DNA of 32,765 bases from Patescibacteria group bacterium. Lineage in GTDB: Bacteria > Patescibacteriota > Patescibacteriia > JAGPKW01. The stretch spans positions 1 through 32,765 of the forward strand of contig JAIPJN010000007.1 in assembly GCA_021734125.1 (NCBI GenBank), in the 5' to 3' direction. The notes beneath the pieces are model-generated. The model worked only from the letters and a program-made list of their open reading frames with translations. It was not told the origin of the DNA and ran no database searches. A program made the position numbers and the translations under genes. Below, one piece after another: positions 1,515-16,738 of this stretch (position 1 is its first letter; every line of letters begins with the position of its first letter).

Positions 1515-3017
1515 TTATTTTATATAATAAAGTTTTTTATTTTTCAATAAATCTAAAGCAACTTTAATTCTATTTTTATCTTTAGCATATAAAGTATATA
1601 ATCTATCACCTTTTGCAACTTCTTCACCTACTTTTCTATTTAAATAAACACCTGTAGATTCTGAAACTGGGCAACCAACAGCTCTTGCAACTTGATTTAA
1701 AAGTTTCATATCTATTTCAGAAATAATACCACTTTTTGGAGCATCAATATATTGTTTAACTGCACCTAAAACTAAATCTTCCGAATTAATTTTACTATAA
1801 CCACCTTGAGCTTTTATTATATCTTGCATTTTTTTCCAAGCTTCACCATTTTTTAATTGTTCTTTAGCTAATTTCTTTGCTTCATTCCCTTTTGCAAGTC
1901 CACATAAATCTATAAGTTTAGAAGATAATAAAACAACTTTTTCTTCTAAATCTTTAGGTCTTCTAGGATGTTGTTGCAAAACTCTTAACACATCTCTAGA
2001 TTCAAGAGCTGGACCAACCCCACTTCCAATAGGTTGAATAGCTTTAGTAATTTCAACATGTATTTTAATTCCAAATTTTGTAGCTACATATTCAAATTTT
2101 CTTTTAAGTTCAAGAGCAGTTTTTTGATCTGGCACTTTAGCCGTTTTACCAACAGGTATATCTATTAAAAGATGATTAATTCCCATAGCAACTTTTTTAG
2201 CCATTATACTTATAACTATTTTGGAATAAGGCTCCATAGAAATTGGGTAAGAAACTCTTATAATTCTATCATCTGCAGGAGCAAGAGATAATCCCCCACC
2301 CCAAACTAGACAAGAATTATTTTTCTTTACTAATTTTTTAATTTGATCAGCTGTAAACTCAATATCCATAATAACATTAACATCTTCACCTGTTGCAGCA
2401 GGAGAAGTTATAGCCTTAGAAAAAGTTTTAGGAATTTTTATACCTAAAGATGCTATAAGAGGAACCATTACCATAGTAGTTTCATTTCCAGGAACACCTC
2501 CAATACAATGTTTATCAGCTACTAATCCTTTAAATTTTAACATTTCACCAGTCTCAGCCATTGCTTTCGTCGTATGATAAAGTTCTAAATCAGTAGCTTT
2601 ATATATAAAAGAAGAGGCTACATAATATGTAGATAAAGTATCAGAAAATCTACCATCTGCTATATCTTTAATGATAGAATGAATTTCTTTATAATTTAAA
2701 GGCTTCCCTAATATTTTCTTTTTTAAAGCAATCATAGATTCTGGATTAACATCAGTAAAAGAAATTCTAGCAACCTCACCTTCTTTAAATTTATATTTAT
2801 CCCACATATTGGGTAAAACACCTATATGACCAACTTTTATTTTCTTTTTTGTTAAATTTACATTAGCAACAATTTCTTTTTTACCATCAATCTTAATACT
2901 AACTTTATCAGTATCTCTAATACCATTTTCCCAAGCATCAGATTCATTTAACAAAACTACAATCGCATTACCAGTAGAAACTGGATATAAAGTAGTTTTA
3001 GCATAATAAACACTCAT
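1515..3017 (-). CDS. deoA: AMP phosphorylase (thymidine-phosphorylase family, archaeal/CPR type)
   Basis: 500 aa; phosphorylase body with KHCIGGVPGNETTMVMVPLIASLG and SPAATGEDVNV, plus the extra N-terminal domain of AMP phosphorylases; adjacent to RuBisCO. Confidence 0.93.
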   Translation of the reverse strand: MSVYYAKTTLYPVSTGNAIVVLLNESDAWENGIRDTDKVSIKIDGKKEIVANVNLTKKKIKVGHIGVLPNMWDKYKFKEGEVARISFTDVNPESMIALKKKILGKPLNYKEIHSIIKDIADGRFSDTLSTYYVASSFIYKATDLELYHTTKAMAETGEMLKFKGLVADKHCIGGVPGNETTMVMVPLIASLGIKIPKTFSKAITSPAATGEDVNVIMDIEFTADQIKKLVKKNNSCLVWGGGLSLAPADDRIIRVSYPISMEPYSKIVISIMAKKVAMGINHLLIDIPVGKTAKVPDQKTALELKRKFEYVATKFGIKIHVEITKAIQPIGSGVGPALESRDVLRVLQQHPRRPKDLEEKVVLLSSKLIDLCGLAKGNEAKKLAKEQLKNGEAWKKMQDIIKAQGGYSKINSEDLVLGAVKQYIDAPKSGIISEIDMKLLNQVARAVGCPVSESTGVYLNRKVGEEVAKGDRLYTLYAKDKNRIKVALDLLKNKKLYYIK

Positions 3018-3040
3018 AGATTTTATTTAAATTAAACTTA

Positions 3041-4369
3041 TTATTTTCCCCATTTTTTTAAAGCTTTTTGAAGCTCTTTATGAGTTTTTGCATATTCAGA
3101 AAGAGAAATATTTTTTAAACTAGCATCAATAGCTTGACGACAAGCTTTAGCTCCAGAAGCACTACCATCTGGATGACCATGAAGACCGCCTCCATAGTTG
3201 ATAATAACATTATTTCCTAATATTTCTATAAGCTTAGAAGTAAGCCCAGGATGAAGTCCACCTGAAGCAATAGGCATAGTAGGTTTTATAGAAGACCAAT
3301 TTTCTTCTAAAATATCAAAACCAGCCCAATCTTCCTTTAAAAACTCATCTATTCTTATAACATCATCTTCATCTCCATCCATTTTACCAACAACTGTCCC
3401 TGTATGAAATTGATCTATTCCTGCAAGTCTAGCAAGTTTAGCTAAAACATACATAGTCATTCCATGTTCATCATTTCTAGTAAAAGCTGAATGTCCAGCT
3501 CTATGACCATGAATAACAAGTTTTAAATCTTGTTTTCTTAAAAGTTGAACATTATCCATACCAACAGAAACAACATCAATCATAACACATTTACCTCCAT
3601 GTTTTTTAACAAATTTAGCTCTTTTTAACATTAAATCAAATGGAGCAGTTACATTAAAAACATACATTTTCTTTTCACCTGTTTCTTTTTCTACCCTTTT
3701 TTTAACCTTCATAACTTCCCTAACTCTATCTTCAAATTTATTAAAGCTTAAACTGGTTAAATTTTCATCATCTTTTATAATATCTATACCATTTGACCAA
3801 ACATCATAAGCAATCTTTCCATATTGTTTAGGAGTCATACCAACTTTAGGTTTAACAATAGATCCAATAAGAGGTCTATTTTTTATATTTAATTTTTTCC
3901 TTATACCAGAAATTCCATGATAAGGACCTTGAAAAGAATTTATATATTTTTTTGGAAATTCCAAATCTAAAAGCCTTAAATTCTTTATACATTTCATGCT
4001 AAAAACATTTCCACCAACAGAAGAAAGAAGTTGAGGAATATTTCCAAATTCAAAAAGATCTAAAGGATAAGCTATTTTAATAACAGCTTTATTTTTATCT
4101 TTTTTCATTTTATTTTCTATAGTTTTACTAACCCTAAAATAACTAGGATAGTGATCAGAAATTTCAAAAACTATAGCATGTAATCTTTCGAAAGTAGCCT
4201 TTGATAAAGTTTTTACATCAGTCCAAGTTCCAATAGAACTTTCAGCAGCAACTTTAGACGCAGAAGTTTTTATATCATCCTCTCCATTAGTTTCTAAATA
4301 ATATGTAGCAATGATATGTTTTTTTAAATCTGGTTTAAATTTTAAATCAACATAAGAAAATTTAGACAT
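3041..4369 (-). CDS. rbcL: RuBisCO large subunit, form III-like
   Basis: 442 aa; AAESSIGTWTDV, SIVKPKVG, carbamylation motif IIKDDENLTS, HGHRAGHSAFTRN, HTGTVVGKMDGD, ASGGLHPG and YGGGLHGHPDG all present; C-terminus EYAKTHKELQKALKKWG resembles archaeal form III. Confidence 0.95.
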   Translation of the reverse strand: MSKFSYVDLKFKPDLKKHIIATYYLETNGEDDIKTSASKVAAESSIGTWTDVKTLSKATFERLHAIVFEISDHYPSYFRVSKTIENKMKKDKNKAVIKIAYPLDLFEFGNIPQLLSSVGGNVFSMKCIKNLRLLDLEFPKKYINSFQGPYHGISGIRKKLNIKNRPLIGSIVKPKVGMTPKQYGKIAYDVWSNGIDIIKDDENLTSLSFNKFEDRVREVMKVKKRVEKETGEKKMYVFNVTAPFDLMLKRAKFVKKHGGKCVMIDVVSVGMDNVQLLRKQDLKLVIHGHRAGHSAFTRNDEHGMTMYVLAKLARLAGIDQFHTGTVVGKMDGDEDDVIRIDEFLKEDWAGFDILEENWSSIKPTMPIASGGLHPGLTSKLIEILGNNVIINYGGGLHGHPDGSASGAKACRQAIDASLKNISLSEYAKTHKELQKALKKWGK

Positions 4370-4415
4370 ATTTTTCTTTTTAACCTTTTTAAATTACTTA
4401 AATTATAACATAAAA

Positions 4416-4449
4416 TAAAGAAAAATGCAGGAATATTTTCCTGCATTAA
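4416..4449 (-). terminator. Rho-independent terminator between the 50-aa ORF and rbcL
   Basis: Minus strand AATGCAGGAA-aata-TTCCTGCATTTTTC. Confidence 0.75.
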
Positions 4450-4457
4450 CTATTTTT

Positions 4458-4610
4458 TTAATATGAACTTCCGCCTATAGTATCAAAATTAATGTCTTCT
4501 TCTATTCCATCAAATTCATCTAAAGATATGTTTGGATAAAATTCATTTTCATCTTCATATTTATCAAAACTATTGATAAAATCTTCTGAAGAATTAAAAA
4601 ACTCCTTCAT
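4458..4610 (-). CDS. Small acidic protein of unknown function, 50 aa (not in the ORF track)
   Basis: My translation: MKEFFNSSEDFINSFDKYEDENEFYPNISLDEFDGIEEDINFDTIGGSSY*. Followed directly by a terminator. Confidence 0.55.
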   Translation of the reverse strand: MKEFFNSSEDFINSFDKYEDENEFYPNISLDEFDGIEEDINFDTIGGSSY

Positions 4611-4705
4611 ATTTTATAATATTAAAATTAAAAATACTTTACTTAACAAAAAAATTGTAGCACAAAAAAATAAATCGTCAACACTTTATAAAAAGCCTAT
4701 TAAAT

Positions 4706-5647
4706 CTAATCTAATAGTAAAAAGTTATAATATTTTTTTAAGTATTTTTTTACTTCTTTAGGTTTTATAATTCCAAATTCACAAATAATCCCTTTTATAA
4801 ATTTAGAAGGAACAACATCAAAAGCAAAATTTAATATTTTTAAATTAACTGGAGCATTCATCCATATTTCCTTGCTATCTCTTTGCTCAATTTTAATATT
4901 ATCTAATACATCTATTTTTAATAAAGAAGCAGCAATATAAACAGGAACATCAGAATAATATGAAGAAAGAGCCATTCCAAAACTTCCAACTTTATTAATA
5001 ATATCTCCATTTAATTTTATAGCATCAACTCCTATTATCATTTTATTCATTGTAAGATCTTTACCTGATATATCATTTATTAAAAAAGCAGAAGAAGAAT
5101 CTGGAAATAAAGTAGTTTCTATACCTATTTCAAGTAAATCTTTAGCTGTTTTTCTACCTTGATATAAAGGCCTTGTTTCTGAATTATAAACAGAAAAATC
5201 AATACCAAAATCATGAGCATTTTTTAAAACCCCAATAACAGAAGATGAATGGCAATGAACTATAATATTATCTCCATTTTTTATAAAAGCCTGTCCATAA
5301 GATTTTAAATTTTCTAAAGATCTATCAAGTAAATCTAAATAATAATCTAAAGACTTTAGTATTTCAGAAACAAGCTCATCAGTATTTTTTTTATCAAAAA
5401 TATTTATTTTAGATTCAACATATCTAATTCCATTAAAAAGTAATGGTTCAGTAGGTCTAGCATTTTTTAATAAAGTAGAAGCTTTCTTAAAATGTTTTCT
5501 AACTTCTGATATTTTAGTAAAATTTTGAGTAGAAAATTCTTTTTTTAATACAGAAAAAGAAGCTCTAGCTATATTAGTAGCGCCTTGTATTTTTATTTCT
5601 TTTATTTCTTTTGCAACCTTTTTTACCTTTTTTAAATCGCTTTTCAT
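4706..5647 (-). CDS. e2b2: Ribose-1,5-bisphosphate isomerase (eIF2B-like family)
   Basis: 313 aa; IQGATNIARASFSVL at the N-terminus, HCHSSSVIGVLKNA, NSETRPLYQGRKTAKDL, GVDAIKLNGDIINKVGSFGMAL; in the RuBisCO neighbourhood. Confidence 0.9.
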   Translation of the reverse strand: MKSDLKKVKKVAKEIKEIKIQGATNIARASFSVLKKEFSTQNFTKISEVRKHFKKASTLLKNARPTEPLLFNGIRYVESKINIFDKKNTDELVSEILKSLDYYLDLLDRSLENLKSYGQAFIKNGDNIIVHCHSSSVIGVLKNAHDFGIDFSVYNSETRPLYQGRKTAKDLLEIGIETTLFPDSSSAFLINDISGKDLTMNKMIIGVDAIKLNGDIINKVGSFGMALSSYYSDVPVYIAASLLKIDVLDNIKIEQRDSKEIWMNAPVNLKILNFAFDVVPSKFIKGIICEFGIIKPKEVKKYLKKYYNFLLLD

Positions 5648-8221: not shown

Positions 8222-8298
8222 TGGTGGGCGTACCAAGACTTGAACTTGGGACCTCATCATTATCAGTGATGCGCTCTAACCAGCTGAGCTATACGCCC
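8222..8298 (-). tRNA. tRNA-Ile (GAU), CCA encoded
   Basis: GGGCGTATAGCTCAGCTGGTTAGAGCGCATCACTGATAATGATGAGGTCCCAAGTTCAAGTCTTGGTACGCCCACCA: complete cloverleaf, anticodon loop CTGATAA. Confidence 0.97.
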
Positions 8299-8349
8299 AA
8301 ATATAAAAACATTATAAAACAATAAAGAGAAAAAATCAATATTATGTAT

Positions 8350-8376
8350 GGACAGGACAGAAAATCTGTCCTGTCC
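8350..8376. repeat. Perfect inverted repeat abutting the tgt stop codon
   Basis: GGACAGGACAG-aaaat-CTGTCCTGTCC; each arm is a GGACA-GGACAG tandem. Confidence 0.8.
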
Positions 8377-9477
8377 TTACGCTAAATACCTCCTTATTTC
8401 CTCCATTAACCTCATATAAAAATTTAAATTATGTAAAGTTAAAAGCTTCATTCCTAAAATATCTGAAACAGATTTTAAATGTCTTAAATAAGATTTAGTA
8501 TGATTTCTACAAGTATAACAATCACAATTTTCATCAAGTGGAGAAAAATCAAACCTATATTTAGAATTTCTTATATTAATAACATCATAAGAATAATCAT
8601 CTAAAGAATTAAATTTTAAATTACAAAAAATCTGCCCATGCCTAGCATTTCTAGTAGGGATAACACAATCAAAAATATCAATTCCACTTTTTACACCTTC
8701 AATTATTTCATCAGGATAACCAAGTCCCATTAAATATCTAGGCTTATCTTCGGGAAGTTTATCCCCTATTAGATTCATTACTTTAAATTTATCTTCCCTA
8801 CTTTCACCAACAGAAACTCCACCTATCGCAAAACCATCAAAATCTAGGCTAGTAATTTTAGATAAAGAATATTCTCTTAAATCATCATATTTTCCACCTT
8901 GAACTATTCCAAAAACTTTTTGATCAGGATTATTAACTATTTTTCCGTTTCTAGCTTCAGTTAAAGATCTCTTAGCCCACCTATATGTTAAATCTATTGA
9001 TTCTTTAAAATAAGAATAAGAAGAATCAGAAGCAACACATTCATCTAAAACCATCATAATATCTGATCCTATTACTTTCTGCATTTGTATAGATTTTTCA
9101 GGAGTAAGAAGAATTTTATTTCCAGAAAGATGATCTCTAAAAATAGCTCCTTCTTCTGTTATTTTTCTAATTTTTCCAAGAGAAAAAACCTGAAAACCTC
9201 CAGAATCAGTTAAAATAGGACCATCCCAATTCATAAATTTATGAAGACCCAAAGATTTTTCTAAAACTTCCATTCCTGGCCTTATCATTAAATGATAAGT
9301 ATTTCCTAAAACTATTTGCATGTTTATACTATGCAAATCTTCTATAGAAAGTGTCTTAACAGCACCAAGAGTAGCATCAGGAATAAAACATGGAGTTTTA
9401 AAAACTCCATGAGAAGTATAGCATTTTCCTAATCTAGCTTTTTCTTTTTTATTTTCTATCTCAAAAAAAGAAGACAT
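8377..9477 (-). CDS. tgt: tRNA-guanine transglycosylase (queuine tRNA-ribosyltransferase)
   Basis: LGNTYHLMIRPG, LTDSGGFQVFSLG, VLDECVASDS, GIVQGGKYDDLR, MGLGYPDEII, CVIPTRNARHGQIF, CxCxxCxxH zinc site. Confidence 0.97.
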   Translation of the reverse strand: MSSFFEIENKKEKARLGKCYTSHGVFKTPCFIPDATLGAVKTLSIEDLHSINMQIVLGNTYHLMIRPGMEVLEKSLGLHKFMNWDGPILTDSGGFQVFSLGKIRKITEEGAIFRDHLSGNKILLTPEKSIQMQKVIGSDIMMVLDECVASDSSYSYFKESIDLTYRWAKRSLTEARNGKIVNNPDQKVFGIVQGGKYDDLREYSLSKITSLDFDGFAIGGVSVGESREDKFKVMNLIGDKLPEDKPRYLMGLGYPDEIIEGVKSGIDIFDCVIPTRNARHGQIFCNLKFNSLDDYSYDVINIRNSKYRFDFSPLDENCDCYTCRNHTKSYLRHLKSVSDILGMKLLTLHNLNFYMRLMEEIRRYLA

Positions 9478-9483
9478 ATTTTA

Positions 9484-11484
9484 CTAATTAACAACTTTAC
9501 CTATATTATCATCAAACTCATTTTCCATATATGTAGTAAGCGGATTTAAATTAACAACATATTCTTTATTAATAAAATCATCAGTATAATAAAAAGTTAT
9601 GTCAGAAGTCAAATCTATATTATTTCCAATTTCATCCTCTTCTGGAGTAACACTCACAAAAAAGTATAAGAAATTATCAGAAGAATCAGAAGAAATATTT
9701 CCAATAGTCCAAACGAGTTCTCTTGTATTTTCATTATACACAATCTTATTATCTAAATTTGTACTATAAATATCATTCCAAAAAACATTACTTGGAATTT
9801 TTGTTTTCATATAAACTCCAGATATATTATTTACATAATTAGAAACATCAAACTTTAATCTATATTTAGTTTCTTCACCAACTTTAGGAGGAACAGGCCC
9901 ATACCCAACTTGATTTCCAGATTCATCATAATAAGCCGTTTTATAATCAACATTAGTATCAGATTTTATTAAAATATTAAAACTATAATTATTAGAAGAA
10001 AGCTTAATTCTATCTGTTGTTCCTTCAATTATTCCTGTTATATAAGTATTACAAAGAAGTGATAAATCACTTAAATTTTCAACATTTTTAAAGCCAAAAA
10101 CGACATTTAGATTTGAAGAAGAAGAAAAATCAGTAAAAGATTCTATTTCATTCTTTGTCCATTTAAAAAGATTTACGGTATCTCCAGTTTCTTCATCAAT
10201 AAAATTTTCAAAATCAGGTTCAACACTAAAATTCATATCAGGAACATTTAAAATATCATCACCTCTAAATTCTAAAACTATTTCAACATCTTTTATATCA
10301 ATATCAGAAGATTGTTTTTCATAACTTAAATTAAAATTATGAACATTATTCAAATCTGATATTATAGATTCTCCAAATTTTGGTAAATTTTGAATATTAG
10401 AACTTGCATCTAACAAAAATTTTACACCAACTTGAGAAACATTTATAGAATCAGTTTCTTCATTCAAAACACTAAAAGTAGATAGTTTATTAGAAGAATC
10501 ATCTATAATTCCAGACTGAACATTAAATCCTTTTTCTATATTAGCACTTTCAAAATATCCAGTTATAATAATTTCTTCTTCAAAACTTTCTAAATCATCT
10601 TTCTTTTCTTCTATAAAATCAAAAAACCAAGTTGATTGTTCACCAGAATATTCTTGTATAGGTTTAATATTATAATCTTTTATAATAAATTCACTAGGAT
10701 AATCAAAAACTAATTTTAAATTATAAATTGGATTAATTTGATTGTTTTTTATTTTTATTTTATATTCAAAATCTTTATTTGGATAAATGACATCAGGCTT
10801 TTCGAGAGTAATATCATATAAAGAATTATTTACAACAGAAGTATAAGAACTAGCAGTATAAAAATTTGATGAAATTTTATCTAATTGATAATTCATAGTA
10901 ACAGAAGTTATAGTTTCATCTCCAATTCTTCCAAAAATTGAACCATCAACTTCTATTTTCATAGAATCTTCAGGTTTTATATTTTTTACAATCCATTTTG
11001 CATACCTAGAATTAATATCAGAAGGAGGTACTGTAGAATTATGATACTCAAATTCCTCAGGAAATCTCATCATTATTTCTGCATCAGTTACTTCAAATTT
11101 TTCAGTATTTTCAAAAGTAATAAAATATTTTATACTTCCATCTTCTTCTATATCAAGTTCACTCCCAACATCAATAGTTAAACTACTATAATAATCTTGA
11201 TTAATATTTAAAAATAAAGAATTATAAACGGACTTACCAACAAAAAACACAAAAACAGCAATAAAAATTAATAACAAAGCTGGAACAATTTTTTGAAAAA
11301 AATTAGAATTATTTTTATAAACAAATTTAGGTTTGTTTAATTCATTATCTATGATATTATCTTTTAAAATATCATTTAGTTTTTTTTCTTTATCATTATC
11401 TTTATTATCTGTCTTATTCTCTTCATTATTAGAATCACTCAAACTTTCATCTTCTAAATTTTGTTGATTGTTTTCTAAACTCAT
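9484..11484 (-). CDS. Single-pass membrane protein with DUF11/Ig-like extracytoplasmic repeats
   Basis: 666 aa; Asp/Glu/Asn-rich N-terminus, one TM (IVPALLLIFIAVFVFFVGKSVY), then beta-rich repeats such as ITFENTEKFEVTDAEIMMRFPEEFEYH and IKIKNNQINPIYNLKLVFDYPSEF. Confidence 0.65.
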   Translation of the reverse strand: MSLENNQQNLEDESLSDSNNEENKTDNKDNDKEKKLNDILKDNIIDNELNKPKFVYKNNSNFFQKIVPALLLIFIAVFVFFVGKSVYNSLFLNINQDYYSSLTIDVGSELDIEEDGSIKYFITFENTEKFEVTDAEIMMRFPEEFEYHNSTVPPSDINSRYAKWIVKNIKPEDSMKIEVDGSIFGRIGDETITSVTMNYQLDKISSNFYTASSYTSVVNNSLYDITLEKPDVIYPNKDFEYKIKIKNNQINPIYNLKLVFDYPSEFIIKDYNIKPIQEYSGEQSTWFFDFIEEKKDDLESFEEEIIITGYFESANIEKGFNVQSGIIDDSSNKLSTFSVLNEETDSINVSQVGVKFLLDASSNIQNLPKFGESIISDLNNVHNFNLSYEKQSSDIDIKDVEIVLEFRGDDILNVPDMNFSVEPDFENFIDEETGDTVNLFKWTKNEIESFTDFSSSSNLNVVFGFKNVENLSDLSLLCNTYITGIIEGTTDRIKLSSNNYSFNILIKSDTNVDYKTAYYDESGNQVGYGPVPPKVGEETKYRLKFDVSNYVNNISGVYMKTKIPSNVFWNDIYSTNLDNKIVYNENTRELVWTIGNISSDSSDNFLYFFVSVTPEEDEIGNNIDLTSDITFYYTDDFINKEYVVNLNPLTTYMENEFDDNIGKVVN

Positions 11485-11517
11485 TTTTAAAACTTAAAAT
11501 TCTAATATAATTATACC

Positions 11518-12090
11518 CTATTTAAAAAATTTATTCACTATAATATCATTTTCTGTATAAAAAGAAATATTTTTAAAAAAACCTTCTTTACTAAAATAAA
11601 TTTTTTTATTTTTAGAAATACCTAAAATCTGTGTTAATTTTATAAAAAATAAATTAATAAATTCAATTAATTTTTTATCTTTTTTAAAATCAATAAAAGG
11701 TTCATTTTTTAAATTTAACTTATCTATAAATTCAAAATAAGAAACGACTAAATCATACAAAGATTTTTCTTTTAAATCATAAAAAGTAAGTGAATTCAAA
11801 ACCTCTAAAGCAAAAGAAAAACAAATATTTTTCTTTAAATTATTTTCTAAATTAAATCTCTTAAAAAGATACACATTACAAATGTAATCATAATTTTTCC
11901 CAGATGCAATATCCGCCTCAATTAAAGAAAAAAATTGCATATGTGAATTTAATTTAGATTGAGATTTATAAGCACCTTTTAATCTTATTACTTTCTTACC
12001 AAAATTATCAGTATATATATTTATAATTTTATCAAAATCAGAAAAATCATATGAAGAAAGTAAGAAAAAATTGCAATGATAATCAATCAT
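11518..12090 (-). CDS. recO: RecO-like DNA repair protein
   Basis: 190 aa; N-terminal SSYDFSDFDKIINIYTDNFGKKVIRLKGAYKSQSKLNSHMQFFSLIEADI resembles the RecO OB-fold. Confidence 0.65.
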   Translation of the reverse strand: MIDYHCNFFLLSSYDFSDFDKIINIYTDNFGKKVIRLKGAYKSQSKLNSHMQFFSLIEADIASGKNYDYICNVYLFKRFNLENNLKKNICFSFALEVLNSLTFYDLKEKSLYDLVVSYFEFIDKLNLKNEPFIDFKKDKKLIEFINLFFIKLTQILGISKNKKIYFSKEGFFKNISFYTENDIIVNKFFK

Positions 12091-15000
12091 TTATATTTTA
12101 TTTATTTCTAAATAAATATCATAATCTCTTATTTTAAAAGAATTCTCTTTCAAATTCTCATTATATTTAATTTCAGTAGCTATAACATTTTCTAAAATAT
12201 AATTTTCATTTTCTAAAATAGCATCTTTTAATTTTGGATCATTAACATTAAATTTTACAAAAATCTTGTCAGATAAAGATAATTTATTTTCAGCTCTTTT
12301 TTTATTTACTAAACTCACAAATTCCCTAGCCATAGATTCTTTTTCTAAATTTTCATCTATATTTATATCAAGACTCATAACAATACCATGATCTGATGCA
12401 ACAGAAGAAGAAGAATTAGAAATAAATCTTATTTCACAATCAGAAGAATCTATTTCCCATTTTTTCGCAACAACTATAATATTATCTTTTAATTCAAAAT
12501 TTCCATTTTTAGCTTCTTTAATAATTTCTTGAACTTCTTTTCCAAATTTAGGACCTAAAACTCTAGCATTTGGACTAACTATCATTTTTGAAATAGAAGA
12601 TGCAGAAGAAACTTTATTAATTTCTTTTATATTAAGTTCAGATTTAATAACATCTTCATTATTATTTATAATTTCTGATTGCAAAGGGGATGCAACTATA
12701 GATATTGAATTAAGAGGATTTTTTACTGGAATATTAGAACTTTTTCTTAAAGACAAACCTAAAGAAACTATATTTCTAATAAAAGAAATTTCAGAAATTA
12801 ATTTATTATCTATATTTTTCTCAGAATAATTAGGCCAAGACTCTAAATGAACAGATTCAAAATAACCTGATTCTAACTCTTTATATAATTTTTCTGCAGA
12901 AAAAGGCATAATAGGAGCTATTATTTTTGAAAATTCTAATAAAACATACCCTAAAACGCTAAGCGATTTTTTCCTTTCCTCTAAATCAGAAGATTTAAAT
13001 CTTAATCTATTTTGTCTTAAATACCAATTTGATAAATCTGATACAAATTTCATTATAGGCCTAGTTGCGTCATCTAATAAATAATTTTCATAACCATAAG
13101 TTGAATCTTTTATAAATTGATTTAGAGAAGAAATAATCCATAAATCAGAATTATTACTAGTTTCTGGTAAATTTTTTATATCAATATCTAAACCTTCTTT
13201 TGCTATTTTATAAAAATCTAAAACATTAAAAATTTTAAATACAATTTTTTTAGTAACTTCTAAAACCCCACTTTCAGAAAAAGCAAAATCAGAAGATTTA
13301 ACAACAGGAGAAGACATTAAATAATAACGAACAGCATCTGCTCCAAATTTATCTAAAACCAAATTAGGATCAGGATAATTCTGTTTAGATTTACTCATTT
13401 TTGACCCATCTTCTGCTAAAACTATTCCATTTACTATAACATTTGAAAAAGCTTCTTTATTAAAAATTGAAGTTGCTAAAACCATTAAAGTATAAAACCA
13501 TCCTCTAGTTTGATCTTGACCTTCTGCTACAAAATCTACTGGCAAAAGAGTTTTTTCATTTGTTGATTCTTGAGAATAAGGCATAGAACCACTTTCAAAC
13601 CAACAATCAAAAACCTCTGGGATTCTAGACATTTTAGAATTGCATTTTGGACAAGTAAAATGAATATCATCAACAAAATGTTTATGTAAATCAAATTCTT
13701 TTCCAGTTCTATTATCAACATATAAAGTTACAATATCAGTGTTTTTCTGGTGAAAATTATATTTTTGTCTATTGTAATCAAAATCGGATAAATATTTTCT
13801 CATAAGAACTAAAGGATCCGCATGACTACAAATAACAATAGTTTTACCTTTATTTTCTGATAATATTTTTTCAAATTCTTTTGAAACTCTATCATAAACA
13901 TCCAAAACACTCTCCCCTCCTCCAAATTTTTCGTCATTCCATTTTACTCTTTTACAATCAAAAAATTTATCTTGAAAAGTTCCATGATTAAATTCTCTAA
14001 AATTATCTCGAGTATTTATTTCTAAATTTTTAGATTCTGCTAATTTAGAAACAGTTTCTGTACATCTAGAAAGTGGTGAAGAAAATATAGCGTCTACTTT
14101 TATATCTTTTAAAATATTCGGTAAAGAATGTCTGTGTTCTAATCCCTCTTTATTTAAAACAGATTTATCTTCATGATCTGCAAAATGCTTTTCATTATAA
14201 TTAGTTCTGCCATGTCTTAATAAAATAACTTTAGTTAAAAGATTCTGATCTTTTGTTTTTTCATAAATATCAGAAACAGAAGAAATAACTTCTACATGTT
14301 TACAATCTGGATTATCACATCTCCAAACAGGTAAAGGGCAACCCCAAAATCTAGATCTAGAAACAGCCCAATCCCTAACATCTTCTAGCCATTTTCCAAA
14401 TCTACCATTTTTTATATGAGAAGGCACCCAATTAACATTTTGATTATTATTTATTAAATTTTCTTTAATTTTAGGAACATTAACAAACCAAGATGAAGTA
14501 GCATAATTTAAAAGAGGTGTATCACATCTCCAACAACAAGGATAACTATGAATATGGTTCTTTTTTGAAAAAAGAGATCCTGCTTTATCTAAAAATTTAA
14601 CAATTTCTAAATCACAAGAAATATTATCTTCTTTAGTTTTTATAGTCATTCCAGAAAAATCAGAAACAGCAGAAGTAAATTTTCCATCAGTTGTTACATG
14701 CTGTATAAAAGGTAATTTTTCCTTTTTTCCTAAAACCATATCATCTTCTCCAAAAGCACAAGCTATATGAACAATTCCCGTTCCTTCTTCTGTTGTAACA
14801 AAATCGGCATCATATATTTTCCAACCATTTTCAATATTTTTTATATCTTTATCATTATAAAAATAATCAAATAAAGGTTCATATTCTTGCCCTATAAAAT
14901 CATTAATATTAATATTTTCAATGATTTTATATTCTTTATTTTCAAAAACATTTTCAATTAAATCTGAAGCTATAATATAATTTTTATTTTCAAAATTAAC

Positions 15001-15717
15001 TAATGAATAAGAAATATCAGAAGAAACAGCAAGTGCAACATTACCAGGAAGAGTCCAAGGAGTAGTTGTCCAACTTAAAACATAAGTATTTTCTTTATTT
15101 TTCAATTTAAAAGAAACAATGCAAGTTAAATCTTTTAAATCTTTATATCCCTGAGTAACTTCAAAATTAGAAAGAGCAGTTTCACATCTAGGACAAATAT
15201 GCATAGGTTTATGCCCTTCATATACAAGATCCTTCTTCCAAAGCTCAGAAAAAACCCACCAAACAGATTCCATATAACTAGCATCCATTGTTTTATAATC
15301 ATTATCCATATCAACCCATCTACCAACTCTAGGTATAAATTCTCTCCAAGAATCTGCATATCTCATAACAGAGCTTCTACAAAATTCATTAAATTTACCT
15401 ACACCATAATCCTCTATATCTTTTTTAGTTTTAAAACCTAGTTCTTTTTCAATTAAATTTTCAACAGGAAGTCCATGACAATCCCAGCCCCATTTCCTTT
15501 CAACATAATAACCTTTCATTGTTTTATATCTAGGAACAACATCTTTTATACAAGAAGCAACTATATGACCATAATGAGGCAGCCCCGTAGCAAAAGGAGG
15601 ACCATCATAAAACCTAAAATCATTATTTTTAGAATTTTTCTCTAAACTTTTTTTAAAAATATCATTTTCATTCCAAAAATTTAATATTTCTTTTTCTTGT
15701 TTTTTTATATCAAGCAT
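12091..15717 (-). CDS. ileS: Isoleucyl-tRNA synthetase (eukaryote-like/IleS2 type) with an inserted histidine-phosphatase domain
   Basis: 1208 aa; FYDGPPFATGLPHYGHI, WGWDCHGLPVE, TTPWTLPGN, GSKMSKSKQNYPDP, DCWFESGSMPY; internal RHG domain at about 13690-14235. Confidence 0.97.
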   Translation of the reverse strand: MLDIKKQEKEILNFWNENDIFKKSLEKNSKNNDFRFYDGPPFATGLPHYGHIVASCIKDVVPRYKTMKGYYVERKWGWDCHGLPVENLIEKELGFKTKKDIEDYGVGKFNEFCRSSVMRYADSWREFIPRVGRWVDMDNDYKTMDASYMESVWWVFSELWKKDLVYEGHKPMHICPRCETALSNFEVTQGYKDLKDLTCIVSFKLKNKENTYVLSWTTTPWTLPGNVALAVSSDISYSLVNFENKNYIIASDLIENVFENKEYKIIENININDFIGQEYEPLFDYFYNDKDIKNIENGWKIYDADFVTTEEGTGIVHIACAFGEDDMVLGKKEKLPFIQHVTTDGKFTSAVSDFSGMTIKTKEDNISCDLEIVKFLDKAGSLFSKKNHIHSYPCCWRCDTPLLNYATSSWFVNVPKIKENLINNNQNVNWVPSHIKNGRFGKWLEDVRDWAVSRSRFWGCPLPVWRCDNPDCKHVEVISSVSDIYEKTKDQNLLTKVILLRHGRTNYNEKHFADHEDKSVLNKEGLEHRHSLPNILKDIKVDAIFSSPLSRCTETVSKLAESKNLEINTRDNFREFNHGTFQDKFFDCKRVKWNDEKFGGGESVLDVYDRVSKEFEKILSENKGKTIVICSHADPLVLMRKYLSDFDYNRQKYNFHQKNTDIVTLYVDNRTGKEFDLHKHFVDDIHFTCPKCNSKMSRIPEVFDCWFESGSMPYSQESTNEKTLLPVDFVAEGQDQTRGWFYTLMVLATSIFNKEAFSNVIVNGIVLAEDGSKMSKSKQNYPDPNLVLDKFGADAVRYYLMSSPVVKSSDFAFSESGVLEVTKKIVFKIFNVLDFYKIAKEGLDIDIKNLPETSNNSDLWIISSLNQFIKDSTYGYENYLLDDATRPIMKFVSDLSNWYLRQNRLRFKSSDLEERKKSLSVLGYVLLEFSKIIAPIMPFSAEKLYKELESGYFESVHLESWPNYSEKNIDNKLISEISFIRNIVSLGLSLRKSSNIPVKNPLNSISIVASPLQSEIINNNEDVIKSELNIKEINKVSSASSISKMIVSPNARVLGPKFGKEVQEIIKEAKNGNFELKDNIIVVAKKWEIDSSDCEIRFISNSSSSVASDHGIVMSLDINIDENLEKESMAREFVSLVNKKRAENKLSLSDKIFVKFNVNDPKLKDAILENENYILENVIATEIKYNENLKENSFKIRDYDIYLEINKI

Positions 15718-15721
15718 AGAC

Positions 15722-16738
15722 TTAATTTTTAACTTCTAAAATTAATTCTTCTCCCCCTCTTAAAACTTTAAACTCATAAGAATCATTATTTAATGATTTT
15801 AACATAAATTCAAGAGAATTATAAACTTTATAATTATTAATTTCCGTAATTATATCAAATTTTTCAAAAGGCAGATCTTCATCTAAAACTTCTTCAACTA
15901 AAAAACCTAAATTATAATTTTCTTTATTATATCCATATAAATCAGAATTTAAATTTATATATTTAATTTTAATATTATTAAAAGTTATATTATCAATATC
16001 ATCTTTTATTTTATTTAAAAAATATCTTAAATTTTCAGCACTAACAAAATTATCTAAATTATAAAAACCAACTAATTTATTTGATAAATCAAAAAACCAT
16101 AAAAGTTTTTCATCTGAATTTAATATAGAACTAAATTTCAAAATATCACCTTTTTTGTTTTTTATATAAGAAGTATCAAATTCACCATATTTATCAAAAC
16201 TAAATACTTTTGACCCAATATATAAATCAGAATCACTGGCAATATCTATTATATTTTTTACATTTTTTTCTATTTTAATAAAAGTAATTCCATAATTTGT
16301 GATTATAGAGTCTGTTATAGAATATATATTACTATCATTGTCTATAACAACATAATTATCAAATATATAATCATTAAAACTAAAACCTTCTTTAACCTTT
16401 AAAGTACTAATAAATTCAGAAGAAACAACAGCCCAACCACTGTTTGTTACAAAAAAACCAGAAGTTTCTATACTATCTTTTTTATATAAATCATCAGCAT
16501 TTTTATTAGCAATATAAACCATATATTCTTTTGTGTTTAAAATATTGTCTTTTAAAGCAACATTTTCATTAATGTTATATTCTTCAGTTTTTTCTATAAC
16601 AACTGAGCTATAAAAAGAATCATCAGAAAATACTAAAGATTTAGAAAAATCTGAACTTAAAATAATAATAGAACCAAAAATACCAGAAATAATACTTAAA
16701 GTTATTATAATAAAAATATTTAAAAACTTACTATTCAT
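15722..16738 (-). CDS. Membrane-anchored HtrA/trypsin-like plus PDZ protein, probably catalytically inactive
   Basis: N-terminal TM; SGFFVTNSGWAVVSSEFI aligns by eye to HtrA SGFIV..GYILTNNHV; LWFFDLSNKLVGFYN aligns to GNSGGPLxxxxGxVVGIN; C-terminal PDZ-like FDIITEINNYKVYNSLEFMLKSLNNDSYEFKVLRGGEELILEV. Confidence 0.55.
   Translation of the reverse strand: MNSKFLNIFIIITLSIISGIFGSIIILSSDFSKSLVFSDDSFYSSVVIEKTEEYNINENVALKDNILNTKEYMVYIANKNADDLYKKDSIETSGFFVTNSGWAVVSSEFISTLKVKEGFSFNDYIFDNYVVIDNDSNIYSITDSIITNYGITFIKIEKNVKNIIDIASDSDLYIGSKVFSFDKYGEFDTSYIKNKKGDILKFSSILNSDEKLLWFFDLSNKLVGFYNLDNFVSAENLRYFLNKIKDDIDNITFNNIKIKYINLNSDLYGYNKENYNLGFLVEEVLDEDLPFEKFDIITEINNYKVYNSLEFMLKSLNNDSYEFKVLRGGEELILEVKN

Follow-up and report, generated by a model that had tools for sequence, protein, structure and literature searches.

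Extra domains in aminoacyl-tRNA synthetases (aaRSs) usually indicate regulation, editing or moonlighting. The editing (CP1/LeuRS) domains of class I aaRSs are insertion-only modules (PMC13114784). They are catalytic domains placed within the synthetase core, and they are ancestral and universal. Type-2 isoleucyl-tRNA synthetases (IleRSs) have been solved for Priestia megaterium (IleRS2, 8c9d) and yeast (8wnd). IleRS variants with extra enzyme domains also exist, since NCBIfam holds exception models for them: besides the mupirocin-resistant MupA and MupB, these include an IleRS with an N-acetyltransferase domain (NF040702).

The histidine phosphatase (HP) superfamily has a catalytic set made up of the RHG motif, a second Arg, an acidic Glu and a second His. 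PspA (4ij5), PhoE (1h2e), GpgP (4pz9) and CobC (6nru) are HPs that occur as separate small proteins. An HP is also joined to a nucleic-acid enzyme in the mycobacterial bifunctional RNase H/acid phosphatase (NF005567), which is an end-to-end fusion.

The DNA analyzed here (hereafter the window, 32,765 nt of a Patescibacteria group bacterium, contig JAIPJN010000007.1) encodes an IleRS with an HP inserted inside it. The host part shares the fold, domain order, HIGH and KMSKS motifs, editing motifs and C-terminal DUF5915 domain with 8c9d and 8wnd, but none of the solved type-2 IleRSs has a phosphatase of ~180 aa between its zinc knuckles. The insert shares the fold (TMq 0.80-0.87) and all catalytic residues with PspA, PhoE, GpgP and CobC, whereas it lies inside an essential synthetase and is ~27% identical to them or less. 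NF005567, which the HP matches weakly, has another partner and is not an insertion, and the NF040702, MupA and MupB proteins, although IleRS variants too, involve another domain and figure only as named exception models. Like the editing domain, the HP is catalytic and interrupts a class I aaRS core; unlike it, the HP is a phosphatase that occurs sporadically and at multiple sites. The main text of the insertion-module survey does not mention HP (PMC13114784), and we found no description of HP-bearing IleRS or valyl-tRNA synthetase (ValRS) in the open-access literature, although automatic domain databases may contain such an architecture. Each half belongs to a known family, and their combination is a recurrent insertion of HP into aaRSs.

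Results

An HP domain is embedded in a type-2 IleRS

The ileS gene occupies positions 12091..15717 on the minus strand of the window, and its reading frame is unbroken over all 1208 aa. The NCBIfam model TIGR00392 matches the product with 844.3 bits (cut-off, 621.4) as two segments flanking the insert, and the Pfam domains run in the order tRNA-synt_1, His_Phos_1, tRNA-synt_1g, Anticodon_1 and DUF5915. The HIGH-type motif PHYGH (aa 47-51; 15565..15579, minus strand) and the KMSKS motif (aa 773-777; 13387..13401, minus strand) are intact, as are both editing-domain motifs (TTTPWTLP and GTGxVH..GEDD), which read WTTTPWTLP and GTGIVHIACAFGEDD. These features together with the TIGR00392 score place the protein in the type-2 IleRSs. 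The whole-protein model (pLDDT 89.6, pTM 0.82) had 8c9d as its best Foldseek match (TMt 0.87), giving a type-2 IleRS around the insert. Scores against the exception models stayed far below their cut-offs (IleRS with N-acetyltransferase domain, 314 of 1999 bits; MupA, 744 of 1900; MupB, 754 of 1900).

A sequence-only reading of this DNA had placed an HP domain inside the uninterrupted IleRS frame, in the zinc region ahead of KMSKS, and had found its catalytic set intact; all of this was borne out. The full insert of ~180 aa (13690-14235, minus strand), the interval given by that reading, corresponds to aa ~495-676, and the PspA/PhoE/CobC-like HP domain itself to aa 497-670 (13708..14229, minus strand). 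It lies between zinc knuckle 1, CDNPDC (aa 467-472; 14302..14319, minus strand), at the upstream edge of the insertion loop and zinc knuckle 2, CPKC (aa 689-692; 13642..13653, minus strand), at the downstream edge, well before KMSKS. The Pfam His_Phos_1 match covers profile positions 1-184 of 194 (E=1e-31; score 110.5 bits, cut-off 21.7). The catalytic set comprises, all on the minus strand, the RHG motif R501-H502-G503 (14209..14217), in which H502 is the predicted phosphate-accepting nucleophile, the second catalytic Arg R551 in PLSRCTET (14065..14067), the predicted general acid E575 in FREFNHG (13993..13995), and the second catalytic His H632 in CSHAD (13822..13824).

Modelled alone with AlphaFold2, the insert gave a pLDDT of 96.0 and a pTM of 0.91. 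Its Foldseek matches were led by 4ij5 and 4ij6 (TMq 0.86-0.87; best match 4ij6, E=9e-16, TMq 0.86), and the closest folds were PspA, PhoE, GpgP, a riboflavin-pathway phosphatase and CobC, with most mutases ranking lower. The phosphoglycerate-mutase-like fold and the four catalytic elements assign the insert to branch 1 of the HP superfamily; a chance motif match is ruled out by the E-value and the fold model. The insert stayed below the NCBIfam equivalog cut-offs: it scored 57.2 bits against a cut-off of 225 for 2,3-bisphosphoglycerate-dependent phosphoglycerate mutase (dPGM), 65.6 against 350 for PspA despite the similar fold, and 76.5 against 162.9 for CobC. The source assembly (69.6% complete) contains no other His_Phos_1 match, and a scan of genome contigs with the insert as query retrieved only two relatives, both free-standing and from Firmicutes.

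An HP occupies the same IleRS site in two further genomes of the family, G380 and G381 (L107 and L103), so that the insert cannot be put down to a faulty junction or a chimeric assembly, the two artefacts against which the sequence-only reading had cautioned. The single frame and the base composition also speak against a chimera or frameshift: GC is 25.8% in the insert and 27.9/24.3% in the two halves of the host gene, and GC3 is 9.9% against 11.1/8.4%. Between the window protein and these relatives the synthetase core is 59-61% identical and the insert 27-31% (61% and 27% for L107), and the insert outpaces the core in several pairs. In a maximum-likelihood test, the likelihood was higher when the window, L103 and L107 inserts were held together, and a separate replacement of the window insert relative to its family is therefore not supported.

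HP-bearing IleRSs and ValRSs recur in Patescibacteria

Beyond the earlier reading, the HP-bearing architecture proved to recur across the Patescibacteria, with ValRS as a second host and with several insertion sites. With PF00300 as the query, we searched 380 genomes from the phylum and 144 from the class and retrieved every listed match in open reading frames (ORFs) of >700 aa. Among the matches listed, at least 75 such ORFs, the window gene included, contain an HP (54 IleRSs and 21 ValRSs), a number that is a lower bound for the phylum. All 75 match the IleRS core, the division into IleRS and ValRS being made by motif, and eight borderline ORFs were confirmed as ValRS by NCBIfam. No other type of large HP-bearing protein was present among the listed matches in ORFs of >700 aa. 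In the class sample, 46 of the 144 genomes have an HP-bearing aaRS: IleRS in 30, ValRS in 17 and both in one. This exclusivity was not significant (P=0.089). In 140 genomes of one Bacillota phylum, the single outside phylum sampled, no IleRS had an HP insert; the IleRS matches there always break at about residue 485 and resume at about residue 674.

The 75 ORFs contain at least 90 embedded HP domains, 13 IleRSs having two and one (L061) three. About six insertion sites are used across the two hosts. Those of IleRS are the zinc loop before knuckle 2, a position at or after knuckle 2, the stretch between DCWFESG and DQTRGW, and that between KMSKS and the anticodon domain; in ValRS the HP lies in the equivalent zinc region or between DTWFSSG and HPT. 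None of the 75 proteins has its HP at the N- or C-terminus. Of the three HPs in the 1572-aa L061 protein (genome G243), one lies at the knuckle-2 site, one ahead of DQTRGW and one beyond KMSKS. In family f79 (L034-L050), two HPs are ~45 aa apart, apparently in place of both zinc knuckles. Knuckle 1 is recognized in 28 of 39 single-HP IleRSs, and the knuckles are absent from nearly all tandem-HP IleRSs, for which reason the HP may substitute for them structurally. Genome G399 has two IleRS genes (L098 and L122), one with the HP insert and the other without.

The catalytic residues of embedded HPs are conserved

The nucleophilic His, the second Arg and the second His are present in 90/90 embedded domains each, the acidic residue is Glu in 86 domains and Asp in four, and the first Arg (of RHG) is kept in 87/90, being Val in one ValRS group; mean column identity is only 29% over 69 of the 90 domains. 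The counts refer to HMM-detected domains, so decayed inserts could have escaped them. The sequence-only reading had named catalytically dead inserts in relatives as the case that would speak against it; essentially none was found among the 90. Two long IleRSs with no HP match (L114 and L115) were read and contain unrelated, repeat-like insertions in the same loop, that of L115 resembling translated repeat elements, and the loop accordingly appears permissive. This pattern of conservation strongly implies that the embedded HPs are catalytically competent and would point to a phosphatase in use by these bacteria.

The Arg of RHG is replaced by Val or another residue in the ValRSs L104, L110 and L113 and in the free-standing HPs L151-L165 (FVHGTTTDNE and similar); the free-standing variants form a common family in the class and do not adjoin aaRS genes. 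In three genomes of one family, the HP is C-terminal to a hydrophobic, membrane-like N-terminal part (L066-L068; 437-462 aa), and two 550-aa proteins (L063 and L064) have a C-terminal HP after an N-terminal part of ~350 aa of no assigned type.

Evolution and genomic context of the inserts

On the IleRS core tree, the presence of HP needs at least seven gains or losses. In the HP tree, the embedded domains mostly cluster and the IleRS and ValRS inserts are intermixed; by its starred branches, the IleRS zinc-loop label must have changed at least five times and the ValRS label at least three times. An AU test rejected a single clade of all aaRS-embedded HPs against the free-standing ones (p=0.009). 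Since many branches of this quick HP tree are weak, we claim no exact number of insertions; the best reading of these trees is that HP-bearing synthetases were gained and lost many times in Patescibacteria. The two HP copies of the f79 tandem IleRSs fall into separate starred clades and therefore are not recent duplicates, which disfavors a simple tandem duplication.

In genome G384, an IleRS gene without an insert is preceded, 151 bp upstream and on the same strand, by a free-standing HP (L149) that the tree places with the embedded ones. This adjacency would be a Rosetta-type link between HP and IleRS, but it is the one case among the neighbors of 20 free-standing HPs in which an aaRS gene is directly adjoined.

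In the window, ileS is followed on the same strand (8222-12090) by genes for tRNA-Ile (GAT; 8222..8298, minus strand), TGT, an orphan protein of 666 aa and RecO; a RecO-like gene also follows ileS at L149. Neither the 666-aa protein (9484-11484) nor the 338-aa protein on the other side of ileS (15722-16738) has a Pfam match. Genes for AMP-phosphorylase-like, RuBisCO large subunit and IF-2B/ribose-1,5-bisphosphate-isomerase-like proteins stand in tandem at 1515-5647, a run that is likely an AMP salvage pathway.

Discussion

We conclude, with a probability of about 0.7, that the window gene encodes a normal type-2 IleRS carrying an independently folding, catalytically competent small-molecule HP of branch 1, that is, a bifunctional synthetase-phosphatase; no substrate is named in this reading. 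Judging from the conserved residues, the embedded HP is very probably an active phosphatase in cis. The domain would sit in a surface loop between the zinc knuckles, in the second half of the IleRS catalytic domain, where H502 would attack a phosphomonoester, E575 would protonate the leaving group, and the phosphohistidine would then be hydrolyzed. As about six sites in two hosts are used, tethering of the HP to the synthetase (or co-production with it) would explain the arrangement better than strict channelling into the synthetase active site. IleRS and ValRS look interchangeable as hosts because only 1/46 genomes has the HP in both; the trend suggests, at P=0.089, that a single HP on a branched-chain synthetase may suffice for each cell.

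Repeated insertion at multiple sites, with the active site kept, in very small genomes argues that a phosphatase attached to Ile/Val charging has been selected for. As substrate, either a phosphorylated inhibitor or a small phosphomonoester with a link to aminoacylation would be most likely. Our best guess, weakly held, is that the HP removes, in the vicinity of the enzyme, a metabolite or inhibitor that is small, phosphorylated and of the nucleotide or amino-acid type. A direct relation of the substrate to aminoacylation seems doubtful. Tentatively, and as a proposal that is less likely than not, branched-chain aaRSs of Patescibacteria may repeatedly and independently have acquired one to three active HPs, with IleRS and ValRS as interchangeable hosts, for one undescribed function tied to aminoacylation. 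The HPs might act on the end of the tRNA, or dispose of an aaRS inhibitor or a phosphorylated by-product. In several pairs the insert has diverged more quickly than the core, so that lineages may differ in function.

The fate of the substrates proposed by the sequence-only reading differs from that of its domain call, catalytic set and position, which all stood: the suggested substrates, from aminoacyl-AMP to Ap4A and sugar phosphates, find no backing in the sequence. Aminoacyl-AMP is a mixed anhydride; the nearest solved relatives, PspA, PhoE and CobC, act on phosphomonoesters. Hydrolysis of (p)ppGpp or Ap4A is attractive for its tie to amino-acid supply, and RelA/SpoT is encoded in 118 of the 144 class genomes, but G402 (98% complete), G399 (95%) and G473 carry an HP-bearing aaRS with no RelA/SpoT detected. 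A general alarmone role is accordingly disfavored, all the more as the nearest relatives usually act on a free phosphomonoester, and we give it only a very slim chance. It is quite unlikely that the HP locally removes the pyrophosphate (or AMP) of aminoacylation and so pulls the reaction forward. HP-bearing aaRSs occur in 0/15 genomes with a strong soluble family-I pyrophosphatase and in 46/129 others (Fisher p=0.003 over the 144 class genomes, in a test that ignores phylogeny), and three members of the window family (70-90% complete) show neither PF00719 nor PF03030. However, 40 of the 46 genomes with HP-bearing aaRSs have a membrane pyrophosphatase, which indicates that pyrophosphate is handled elsewhere and weakens the case for a replacement; the solved HP relatives are phosphomonoesterases, and the restriction to Ile and Val would be left unaccounted for. 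In the class sample, soluble family-I pyrophosphatases and membrane pyrophosphatases largely complement each other, the window family showing neither.

Self-protection is a further reading, in which the HP destroys phosphorylated or nucleotide-like inhibitors of IleRS and ValRS. The patchy gains and losses, the several sites and an insert evolving faster than its host suit an optional adaptive trait, and the NCBIfam exception models include mupirocin-resistant forms beside the N-acetyltransferase-domain IleRS. We nevertheless consider such detoxification unlikely: no PADLOC defence model matches, the two synthetases would have to share one inhibitor class, and to our knowledge no inhibitor is known for these bacteria. 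Could the insert instead supply a metabolic enzyme that the cell otherwise lacks, either phosphoglycerate mutase or phosphoserine phosphatase, and be encoded within ileS by chance? It is the sole HP found in an incomplete genome and its best fold match is the phosphoserine phosphatase PspA, yet the equivalog cut-offs for dPGM, PspA and CobC are far away and IleRS and ValRS as constant hosts stay unexplained. Because 141 of the 144 genomes, the source genome included, have a separate gene for a Metalloenzyme-family protein that matches cofactor-independent phosphoglycerate mutase in size, the HP is not the cell's phosphoglycerate mutase, and the missing-enzyme proposal as a whole has little probability. 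Equally hard to sustain, if not slightly more so, is the view of the HP as a structural passenger, in which a permissive loop tolerates a compact domain whose termini lie next to each other and whose catalysis is not under selection. The repeat-like insertions of L114 and L115 and the zinc knuckles lost in tandem-HP IleRSs would fit it, but the catalytic residues are essentially invariant across 90 domains despite fast divergence, and the domain type is identical every time.

The bifunctional synthetase-phosphatase reading bears on annotation as well as on physiology. Annotators should be warned that HP-bearing ileS genes and their valine counterparts are bifunctional. Moreover, a recurrent HP in two related synthetases would offer a direct handle on how translation in Patescibacteria is connected with metabolism or with chemical warfare.
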